NCBI RefSeq assembly: GCF_003610555.1
Contig: NZ_RAPQ01000008.1
Location: 186,001-250,000 of the forward strand
Direction of reading: 5' to 3'
Length of the DNA: 64,000 nucleotides
Origin: Marinifilum flexuosum
GTDB taxonomy: Bacteria > Bacteroidota > Bacteroidia > Bacteroidales > Marinifilaceae
The notes beneath the pieces are model-generated. The model saw only the letters and a list, made by a program, of their open reading frames with translations, was not told the DNA's origin and searched no databases. Of the stretch, positions 2,743-27,243 are shown piece by piece; position 1 is the first letter of the stretch; the number at the start of each line of letters is the position of its first letter. Made by a program: the position numbers and the translations under genes.

Positions 2743-3852
2743 ATGGAACATGTACTAGCCCCACTTAATTCGTTCATTATTATTGTAATTGTAGGATCGA
2801 TATTTTTGTTATCCTTTTTACTGTTAGGGAATCTTTTAAAGGTAAACCGAAAAGCCAATATTTTACTGGCTCTCTTTTTATTGATTTGGGCTAGCTTTTG
2901 GATGGATGAGTTATTGGGAATGATAGGAATAAAAACTTATTCACCTACTTTAATTGAAACTCTAGGCGTAATACAAACATTTGCAGCAATCTTGTTTTAT
3001 TTCAGTGTTTTGTATTATACGAATCCATATCGGAAACTAAGAAAAAAAGATTCTCTCCATTTGATTATTCCGATACTTGTGGCTGTTGTTACCCTTTTCG
3101 ATATTGAAATAGGTGAGCGATTTGATTCATATCGATGGTTTGTGCTGGTGTTGCTCATTCAGGCTGCTTTTTATATTCTGACTTCTTTACTGTTATTGCA
3201 AAAGCACGAAAAAAGAATTGAACTCTTTAATTCGAATCGTGAGTTGGTTGATTTGAAGTGGATCAAGCAAATTATCTTTTCGCTCATAGCAATCAGTATT
3301 TTTATCATTGTTTACAACCTGATTATTTCAGAAGGGAATTTAAACATATTCGGAAATGTATTTTCTCTGATCATTTTGCTGTTTTTGGCCTACAATACAT
3401 TAAAGCAAAAAGAGATTTTTCTGATTAGTGAAGAGGAGTTGGAAAAGGTTTTAGAGGAGAAGAGCCTGGAACAGAAAGGCAAGCAAAAACTTTTGTCTGA
3501 TGAGGAGATTATTGTTTTAAGGGATAAGCTTGAATCGCTAATGAAAGGGAAAAGACCATATTTGGAAGGGGATTTAAGTCTCTCGAAATTGGCAGAATTC
3601 ATCGAAATAACACCGCATCATTTGTCTTATCTTTTAAATGAGGGTTTCAATAAGAACTTCTTTCAGTATGTAAATCATTATCGGGTAGAGGAAGCCAAAA
3701 AGCTTCTCCTGAGTGAAGAATACAAGCACATTTCAATCATTGGAATTGCGTATGATTCTGGATTTAACTCCAAGACGGCCTTTAATACGGTGTTTAAAAA
3801 AGAAACCGGGCTGACGCCTTCTTTGTTTAAGAAAAATTCGGGTAGTTTGTAA
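2743..3852 (+). CDS. Membrane-anchored AraC-family transcriptional regulator
   Basis: 369 residues from the ATG at 2743. An in-frame TTG at 2734 gives only three more residues, so the ATG is preferred. The first ~220 residues are hydrophobic, with about seven predicted membrane helices. The last ~105 residues form an AraC-type double helix-turn-helix (LSLSKLAEFIEITPHHLSYLLNE; then HISIIGIAYDSGFNSKTAFNTVFKKETGLTP split across the second HTH). This 7TM-AraC layout is common in Bacteroidota and implies signal sensing at the membrane. No obvious target gene lies next to it; the downstream repeat array and TonB receptor are the nearest candidates. Confidence 0.85.
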   Translation: MEHVLAPLNSFIIIVIVGSIFLLSFLLLGNLLKVNRKANILLALFLLIWASFWMDELLGMIGIKTYSPTLIETLGVIQTFAAILFYFSVLYYTNPYRKLRKKDSLHLIIPILVAVVTLFDIEIGERFDSYRWFVLVLLIQAAFYILTSLLLLQKHEKRIELFNSNRELVDLKWIKQIIFSLIAISIFIIVYNLIISEGNLNIFGNVFSLIILLFLAYNTLKQKEIFLISEEELEKVLEEKSLEQKGKQKLLSDEEIIVLRDKLESLMKGKRPYLEGDLSLSKLAEFIEITPHHLSYLLNEGFNKNFFQYVNHYRVEEAKKLLLSEEYKHISIIGIAYDSGFNSKTAFNTVFKKETGLTPSLFKKNSGSL

Positions 3853-3885
3853 TGGCAATTGGGTAAGGATATATCATTGTTTTAA

Positions 3886-4713
3886 AAATACTGCGCTGCT
3901 CTGCAGCTTGATTCCAATTGTTCGGATGTTGCTATAAATGCTGCGCCACTCTGTGGCTTGAGATTGGTGGAAAAGGAGTAAAGGTGCATAGCACCGAAGT
4001 CTTTATAGCAAATGATTGAGAACAAGTATTCAGGTACGTAGTACCGTGGTATCCGAATAAGGTATCATTGATTGTTGTTGTATTAGGTTAGAAATAATAC
4101 CGCGCTGCTCTGCAGCTTATTCTAAATATATGGCATTGTGCTATAAATGCTACGCCACTCTGTGGCTTGGGATTGGTGGAAAGGAGCAAAGGTGTATCGC
4201 ACCGAGGTTTCTATATCAAATGGTTGTGTACAAGCCTTAAAGTGCATGGTGCCGTGGTGTAAGAATGGGGTCTGCGATTAATGTATTATTTGTTTAGAAA
4301 AATACCGCGCTGCTCTGCAGCTTGATTCCAATTGTTCGGATGTTGCTATAAATGCTGCGCCACTCTGTGGCTTGAGATTGGTGGAAAAGGAGTAAAGGTG
4401 CATAGCACCGAAGTCTTTATAGCAAATGATTGAGAACAAGTATTCAGGTACGTAGTACCGTGGTATCCGAATAAGGTATCATTGATTGTTGTTGTATTAG
4501 GTTAGAAATAATACCGCGCTGCTCTGCAGCTTATTCTAAATATATGGCATTGTGCTATAAATGCTGCGCCACTCTGTGGCTTGGGATTGGTGGAAAGGAG
4601 CAAAGGTGCATAGCACCGAAGTCTTTATAGCAAAAGATTAAGCACGGACCTTAAGGTACATCGTACCGTGGGATATAACAGGTAATCAGATTCGAATAAT
4701 TATTAAAAAATGT
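3886..4713. repeat. Four tandem ~207-bp nested-palindrome units
   Basis: Anchor motif GCGCTGCT starts at 3893, 4102, 4307 and 4516 (spacings 209, 205, 209). A segment of about 300 bp from 3893 and its copy from 4307 (offset 414) look identical except for A/G at 4152 versus 4566. In unit 1 each hairpin has a 5-bp stem and triloop: 3895-3907 (GCTGC-TCT-GCAGC), 3945-3957 (GCCAC-TCT-GTGGC), 3983-3995 (GGTGC-ATA-GCACC), 4033-4045 (GGTAC-GTA-GTACC). Hairpins 3 and 4 are reverse-complement relatives of 2 and 1: TTGCTATAAA (3929-3938) faces TTTATAGCAA (4002-4011), and ATACC motifs precede hairpin 1 and, inverted, follow hairpin 4. The order is therefore A-B-B'-A'. Resembles REP/BIME elements. No protein-coding signal seen. 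Confidence 0.9.
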
Positions 4714-4733
4714 TCGCATTGATAAATGCGAAC
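4712..4733. repeat. Perfect 9-bp hairpin
   Basis: GTTCGCATT (4712-4720) and AATGCGAAC (4725-4733) with a GATA loop. There is no T-run after it on either strand, so it is not an obvious terminator. It lies between the repeat array and the TonB locus and may be a boundary or a regulatory structure. Confidence 0.55.
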
Positions 4734-4774
4734 CTGTTTAGGCGTTCTACTTTATAAAAAACACCCGTTTAAAT

Positions 4775-27171: not shown

Positions 27172-27243
27172 GGCCCCATAGTTCAAGGGATAGAATAGTT
27201 GTTTCCTAAACAATAGATCCAGGTTCGAGTCCTGGTGGGGCTA
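27172..27243 (+). tRNA. tRNA-Arg (anticodon CCU)
   Basis: All cloverleaf arms can be drawn: acceptor GGCCCCA/TGGGGCT, D-arm GTTC/GAAT, anticodon arm GTTGT-TTCCTAA-ACAAT with anticodon CCT, T-arm CCAGG-TTCGAGT-CCTGG, discriminator A. No CCA is encoded (CCCA follows). It reads AGG codons. The ~300-bp gap around it holds only this gene, its promoter and a terminator. Confidence 0.95.

Follow-up and report, generated by a model that had tools for sequence, protein, structure and literature searches.

What kind of element forms the four tandem units at positions 3886-4713 of the stretch of Marinifilum flexuosum DNA analysed here (64 kb, hereafter the window), and how did the units come to lie between two protein-coding genes? 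An earlier note, made from the letters alone, had described four ~207-bp units, each bearing triloop hairpins in the order A-B-B'-A', and had proposed either a BIME-type element or a structured RNA array. We present here the anatomy of the units, their distribution in this genome and its relatives, their association with a Y1 transposase gene, and the reading that we consider best supported.

Anatomy of the array and its arms

Tandem Repeats Finder recognizes the array as a repeat of period 208 with 3.6 copies (score 1071, window positions 3887-4639), and the four ~207-bp units are spaced 206-208 bp apart. The described hairpin order was confirmed, with 14 of the 16 expected hairpins forming perfect 5-bp triloop structures (Table 1); the imperfect pair comprises both right-arm hairpins of unit 2 (~4191 and ~4241, by eye), and the corresponding arm is absent from the matches of R1, a covariance model built from arms. 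The ~300-bp repeat noticed earlier at offset 414 is equally real, positions 3884-4183 and 4298-4597 being 99% identical over 300 nt as a direct repeat. Against the assembly error that the earlier note had named as a possible refutation, the orthologous spacer of the sister genome G038 carries the same repeat, with two units vs four, the first of the two partly decayed.

Table 1. Arms, hairpins and flanking terminator of the array, in window coordinates (R1, covariance-model match on contig G000:C1)
Feature	Position	Strand	Evidence and details
Unit 1, left arm	3881..3965	+	R1 match G000:C1:189881-189965, 70.8 bits; hairpin A 3895-3907 GCTGC-tct-GCAGC; box CTATAAA; hairpin B 3945-3957 GCCAC-tct-GTGGC
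Unit 1, right arm (inverted)	3975..4059	-	R1 match 189975-190059, 61.2 bits; B' 3983-3995; box inverted TTTATAG; A' 4033-4045
Unit 1, perfect hairpin starts	3895, 3945, 3983, 4033
Unit 2, left arm	4090..4174	+	R1 match 190090-190174, 72.8 bits; A 4104-4116, B 4154-4166
Unit 2, right arm, decayed	4183..4267	-	Direct repeat D2, 77%; positioned from the register of units 1, 3 and 4; B' ~4191-4203, wobble needed to pair; A' ~4241-4253, mismatched (by eye)
Unit 2, perfect hairpin starts	4104, 4154
Unit 3, left arm (copy of unit 1, offset 414)	4295..4379	+	R1 match 190295-190379, 69.1 bits
Unit 3, right arm	4389..4473	-	R1 match 190389-190473, 61.2 bits
Unit 3, perfect hairpin starts	4309, 4359, 4397, 4447
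Unit 4, left arm	4504..4588	+	R1 match 190504-190588, 71.6 bits
Unit 4, right arm	4597..4681	-	R1 match 190597-190681, 61.1 bits
Unit 4, perfect hairpin starts	4518, 4568, 4605, 4655
Terminator-like hairpin, T-run (- strand) facing the array	4706..4739	-	Inverted repeat I13

Each unit consists of two inverted arms of ~85 nt, such that B'-A' is the A-B of the opposite strand. The distal hairpin of an arm is followed, ~50 nt further along, by the box CTAYAAA and by a second hairpin that starts 13 nt after the box does. The consensus of the distal part is (A)TTAC - 5-bp stem - triloop - stem - TT, followed by ~24 nt, and that of the proximal part is CTATAAATATTAC - stem - TCT - stem - TT. Start-to-start distances between the two hairpins are mostly 49-51 nt (range 48-53, excluding two spurious cases), and when plus- and minus-strand arms of the genome were paired by script, the inner gap was -1 to 28 nt in 28 of 35 pairings; the remaining seven have gaps of 92-217 nt, and some of these span from one unit to the next because an arm escaped detection. 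Folded as single-stranded DNA, the unit at 3886-4060 is more stable than most shuffled sequences (z = -2.55 vs 200 shuffles, 2 of the 200 being equally stable), and its centroid structure contains, besides the four hairpins, an inner stem in which TTGCTATAAA pairs with TTTATAGCAA, that is, the two boxes with each other.

The earlier observation that stems change while pairing is kept was examined in an alignment, A1, of 53 of 64 arms; two arms whose 55-nt pitch is spurious were excluded, as were near-duplicates. In A1, 98.1% of cells are paired, and both sides of a pair are changed in 93 cells against a shuffled mean of 35.1 (0 of 500 shuffles as high). Two of five covariation measures fail to exceed the shuffles, namely pairs with double change (5 vs a mean of 4.2; 134/500 as high) and further pair types (12 vs 10.7; 107/500 as high). 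Because the A1 arms were selected for pairing, A1 overstates covariation, and the test of hairpins at a fixed distance from independently selected boxes, presented below, is therefore the fairer one. Column counts of the same 53 arms define a hairpin foot that is mostly T-[TAC]-[ATG]-C distally and [TC]-T-[ATG]-C proximally; the tetranucleotide foot GT[AG]G was not found in these counts.

The array is flanked by an HTH_18/AraC regulator, as the earlier note had it, and by a protein with N-terminal CarboxypepD_reg domains. The latter had been called a TonB receptor, a label that fits in context; the protein matched CarboxypepD_reg only, and no TonB-receptor Pfam model. The proposal of a structured RNA array found no support: the sole Rfam match at gathering score in the 64-kb window is a tRNA at 27172-27243, with none on the array; nor did Rfam yield a structured RNA family in L014, another locus of this genome.

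Dispersal, insertion sites and terminators

A pattern for hairpin B matched 36 times in the genome vs 0 for the reversed pattern, and R1 identified 86 arm matches at E <= 0.01, including a small number that overlap one another on the two strands. The window array is intergenic, and the copies elsewhere in this genome are dispersed and mostly form inverted pairs. Arms at E <= 1e-4 occur in 18 of 56 genomes of the family, among them G036 with 16 arms and G038 with 34, some of the latter 89-97% identical to a copy in the M. flexuosum genome (G000). An exact pattern was found in 97 stretches of named genomes, and all 80 among the matches listed carry names of Bacteroidota groups. The covariance-model search that the earlier note recommended thus returned the further copies, and A1 together with the box-selected test below the covariation, on whose presence that note had staked its reading.

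Comparisons with sister genomes define two sites at which a copy is present in one genome and missing in another. The copies at C1:892116-892304 and C1:2172457-2172645 share 93% identity along 249 bp, diverge beyond, and carry no gene. In G038, which lacks the C1:892116 copy, query positions 1-1101 and 1345-1470 match at the adjoining positions 313639 and 313640, with 243 bp absent; in G036, which lacks the C1:2172457 copy, ~240 bp are absent and ~30 nt of partly different sequence occupy the site, while in G039 this copy is present at the same place. Target duplication, as expected of a MITE of a cut-and-paste transposon, is not evident by eye at either empty site, where the ends are ambiguous by some bases. 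The unit at C2:806946 lies inside unbroken matches in G036, G038 and G039, and further locus queries against the sister genomes yielded no empty site for a unit. The shared copies, the missing ones and the difference in unit number at the window site therefore point to older insertions, younger ones, and local duplication.

In one genus, most of the aligned copies lie beside intrinsic terminators. Among 21 aligned Marinifilum copies (19 among the matches listed plus L060 and L067, with orthologs included and 14 distinct terminators counted), the terminator T-run ends 25-45 nt before hairpin A in 17; two of the other four have a T-run at 19 nt and two have no terminator, and a shuffled-flank control gave 6/2100. 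The mapped end of the ~245-bp subfamily starts directly after the T-run, the terminators differ between copies, and both empty sites retain hairpin and T-run (by eye). Of 42 outer sides of 21 clusters in the M. flexuosum genome, 14 have an element-facing terminator within 230 nt, and 8 of these 14 lie at 29-37 nt, including the right side of the window array, where the T-run ends 37 nt from A' of unit 4 and thus within the range of the other copies; seven terminators face away from the element, the nearest at 63 nt.

As a rule for the whole family, terminator targeting was tried and rejected. At the 80 named loci, 64 of which are not labelled Marinifilum, a terminator was found at 30-39 nt on 4 of 105 outer sides, three of these on Marinifilum contigs and one in a Marinilabiliaceae MAG; the test used 126 of 174 full-length matches (at least 46.5 bits), and a weaker arm may lie beyond a side scored as outer. 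As a pattern, adjacency was not seen outside Marinifilum-like genomes at these loci and is therefore a trait of one branch. A search of the open-licence literature found no description of terminator-side insertion by a single-strand DNA transposase.

A Y1 transposase gene and the geometry of nearby hairpins

The earlier note had also suggested a search for a RAYT/Y1 transposase elsewhere in the genome, and this search succeeded in part: the genome has seven matches to the Y1_Tnp family, and one of them, the 152-aa protein encoded at L009 (G000:C2:803163-803618), directly follows a five-unit array, but this protein is no canonical RAYT. The L009 protein scores 58.9 against NF033573 (IS200; cut-off 55) and 22 against NF047646 (REP-associated; cut-off 80). 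Solved structures related to it by sequence include 2fyx (E 7.4e-6), 2xm3 and others, all of them named transposases; 2xm3 is ISDra2 TnpA. Its motifs are PDHIHIF, NWQKGYG and YVLNQEEHH, and our own regular expression for the Y motif matches 80 of 103 extracted Y1 proteins. In a 2018 classification, TnpA-Y1 subclass 1.2 is described by the motifs DH[IV]H, WQ and Y---Q--HH, a length of ~148 aa, low copy number and occurrence in Bacteroidetes (PMC6006769), and the L009 protein fits this subclass, to which we provisionally assign it by its motifs. In the table of that paper the row for subclass 1.2 has 'no' under REPs (Quentin et al. 2018, PMC6006769); its text states that IS200-type ends are generally absent, and the manual REP searches it names concern other subclasses (PMC6006769).

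Proteins resembling that of L009 at E <= 1e-20 occur in 143 of 395 sampled Bacteroidota genomes. The M. flexuosum genome has one intact close tnpA and one broken relative, its other Y1 genes being distant. The broken relative of a subclass 1.2 transposase (L010, G000:C3:554472-554848) precedes a unit; an open relative of L010 occurs in G037 at what looks like the same place. Two 184-aa transposases of the REP-associated type (L011 and L012) reach 84.5 and 87.5 bits against NF047646 (cut-off 80), and stretches of 17 and 15 kb around them (L018, L019) gave no arm match at E <= 0.05; a RAYT partner was rejected on this ground.

Arms of at least 57 bits lie within 1.5 kb of the gene at 8 of 9 loci whose Y1 is at least 60% identical to L009, vs 0 of 24 loci with more distant Y1 genes (Fisher 6e-7); at the ninth close locus, in G004, the Y1 is 70% identical and the arm match reaches only 20 bits. 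When the 80 named loci were picked for the element instead, seven had a Y1 gene, in five of the seven within 100 nt of an arm, with the proviso that one of the seven, L116, is the G039 locus already counted. At the level of the 56 genomes, seven have arms and a close Y1, one a Y1 alone, 11 arms alone, and 37 neither (Fisher 0.0009). Thus, 11 of 18 arm-bearing genomes have no close Y1, and arms are therefore often present without a close enzyme, as in G036 and G038, which have no Y1 of >60% identity despite their arms. The L009 gene with its array has a counterpart in G039, and G036 and G038 match one side only. In G028 and G030, similar arm groups flank the Y1 gene on both sides, an arrangement that would also fit an IS-like unit.

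To place the hairpins in a broader context, 84 family loci and 29 phylum loci were fetched by their Y1 gene alone, and each was assigned to the nearest of three queries. Of 91 Y1 matches listed for the family, five were left out as fragments or weak and two loci hold a pair of matches each, which leaves the 84; the phylum loci were taken as top matches rather than at random, with identities of 50-58% to L009 or 48-52% to L008. Hairpin density within 600 nt of the gene vs beyond 900 nt was 3.99 vs 0.56 per kb (42 loci), 3.77 vs 0.38 (26 loci) and 4.86 vs 0.78 (the 29 phylum loci), compared with 1.97 vs 1.71 at the 16 loci of a divergent Y1 group used as control, which matters because the far zones probably hold more coding sequence. 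At least three hairpins lie within 600 nt of the gene at 76 of 97 loci vs 7 of 16 in the control. The control is the Y7 group (L007, with DHCHC, plus 15 loci), where no hairpin enrichment was seen.

The offset between box and hairpin is conserved as well. Within 700 nt of the 97 Y1 genes, 79 of 134 CTAYAAA boxes have a perfect 5-bp triloop hairpin at exactly +13. These hairpins come from no more than 25 of the 97 loci and show 19 different stems, so that in this box-selected set, too, stems change while pairing is kept; the next-best offset accounts for 4 boxes, and the far zones for 1 of 35. The mean number of pairs out of five over the 134 boxes is 3.81 at +13 vs 0.9-1.4 elsewhere in offsets 9-19, and no CTAYAAA box was found near the 16 control genes. 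The 49-51 nt hairpin pitch recurs in 88 more distant loci and is absent in the 16 control loci. Near Y1 genes <43% identical to the queries, hairpins are many and the +13 peak is absent; the Y8-type group mostly fails the hairpin count (4-bp stems by eye).

Stems and boxes are lineage-specific, the arrays of other Y1 genes having different stems and the boxes CTATAAACAT, CTACCATAAT and CTACGAAGA. On a Y1 tree of 103 proteins from the 113 loci (broken, short and identical ones left out), box labels require 22 changes against a shuffled mean of 42.9 (0 of 200 shuffles as low); the tree was built by a fast method and leaves many forks unresolved, near-copies contribute to the clustering, and L008 was labelled box A by a counting rule though it also carries CTACGAAGA.

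Relation to known systems and rival explanations

The closest known counterparts are the REP, BIME and REPIN sequences of E. coli and Pseudomonas with their TnpA-REP (RAYT) enzymes, which likewise are dispersed short palindromes in inverted pairs or clusters, beside a Y1 gene (the REPtron). To this extent the BIME-type reading of the earlier note stands: the element is dispersed, inverted and hairpin-bearing, and lies beside a Y1 (HUH) gene. Instead of the REP doublet, however, it has a pair of two-hairpin arms, with a ~50-nt pitch within each arm, four hairpins per unit and 5-bp stems, it has no GT[AG]G foot, and the adjoining enzyme is of the IS200 type (NF033573) and not of class 2 (NF047646). 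Because the tests of foot and enzyme class fail, we do not file the element under the TnpA-REP type; we see in it a REP/BIME-like element whose architecture is new and whose partner is probably new as well.

Other systems share single features with the element. IS200/IS605 elements such as IS608 and ISDra2 have a related transposase and subterminal hairpins, but the mapped ~245-bp copies are gene-free and their arms inverted, whereas in IS608 the end hairpins are both on one strand. Class C (IIC) group II introns insert just past intrinsic terminators; unlike these, the ~245-bp unit has no reverse transcriptase, and Rfam gave no ribozyme in the window or L014. The L009 protein shares DHIH, WQ, Y---Q--HH and a length of ~150 aa with TnpA-Y1 subclass 1.2, for which the published table has 'no' REPs (PMC6006769), whereas 76 of 97 loci here have at least three near hairpins. 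Subclass 2.6 TnpA, for its part, is described from Bacteroidetes with 'atypical secondary structures' and copies elsewhere in the genome, but is a different enzyme class (Y---NP; PMC6006769); two Y1 genes of the M. flexuosum genome with a fitting motif, YIHNNP, have no arms nearby. In the open-licence literature we recognised neither REPs for subclass 1.2 nor four-hairpin units of this kind.

With a probability of roughly 0.7, we read the array as a non-autonomous REP/BIME-like element with two-hairpin arms, a subclass 1.2 transposase as its presumed partner, terminator-side insertion in one subfamily, and subsequent tandem duplication. The recognition module would be the ~85-nt arm, with its two 5-bp triloop hairpins ~50 nt apart and the box 13 nt before the second, and the complete element would be two inverted arms flanked at either end by ~30 nt, with a length of ~245 bp in the sole subfamily whose ends are mapped. 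A Y1 (HUH) transposase of subclass 1.2 would bind the hairpins in single-stranded DNA, cut near the box or the hairpin foot, and move or copy the element. One Marinifilum subfamily would insert immediately behind intrinsic terminators, 3' of the T-run, a place where little harm to the host is expected, and the four units of the window would reflect an insertion first and local tandem duplication after. Evenly poised, in our judgement, is the broader proposal that subclass 1.2 runs a REPtron-like system across Bacteroidota in which geometry sets the element and stems and boxes diverge with the enzyme, one branch targeting terminators, whose hairpin, about one pitch upstream, may replace an arm hairpin.

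The main competitor holds that the element moves by another enzyme, REP-associated or unrecognised, with the subclass 1.2 gene a frequent neighbour or passenger. The arms of G036 and G038, genomes without a close Y1, are what it would lead one to expect, given that some in G038 are so similar to G000 copies, and two NF047646-type transposases are at hand in the genome; yet the 17- and 15-kb stretches around these genes gave no arm match at E <= 0.05, well beyond the genus the +13 offset and 50-nt pitch recur at subclass-1.2-like genes, and the Y1 tree groups the box labels. We consider this explanation unlikely. A host function in RNA or DNA, whether terminator extension, protection of mRNA ends or a protein site, with mobility secondary or old, would account for stems that vary yet remain paired and for the terminators beside Marinifilum copies, and similar roles have been attributed to REPs of other systems (PMC6006769). 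We nevertheless consider it quite improbable, as copies are missing at orthologous sites of sister species, unit number at the window site varies between species, and no Rfam family lies on the array. Plain tandem expansion of no special origin would explain the stretch repeated at offset 414 and the two units vs four in a sister species, but is contradicted by the 36-vs-0 pattern matches and the 86 arm matches, and by arms dispersed, mostly as inverted pairs, through many genomes; we regard it as very improbable indeed.

In these arms, a transposase subclass that is common in Bacteroidota but has had no reported DNA element gains a candidate partner. The apparent joint change of enzyme and hairpin supplies a natural comparison set, in which exchanging stems and boxes from one lineage to another would put HUH hairpin recognition to a direct test. 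For a transposase that works on single-stranded DNA, placing copies next to terminators would be a way of doing little harm.

Other repeats were observed alongside the element. Weak arm matches of 29-36 bits at G000:C1:1991564-1996387 and 1964159 have GCCCC/GGGGC stems and, where read, a 'cccaagg' flank, and perhaps represent a separate derived family. A second hairpin family with the box CTACGAAGA has 9 matches in the M. flexuosum genome vs 0 in the control, two of them adjoining the L008 Y1 gene, and includes G000:C2:561782-561850 and seven others among the matches listed (L252-L260). Another dispersed repeat of ~190 bp, at L014:15325-15515 (G000:C2 ~805324-805514), has dozens of copies among the matches listed in four sister genomes; the stretch that contains it, query 3751 to 4104, is absent from G036, and Rfam gave no match in L014, this repeat included. 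A 44-bp motif at L014:15679-15722 likewise occurs many times among the matches listed in sister genomes.
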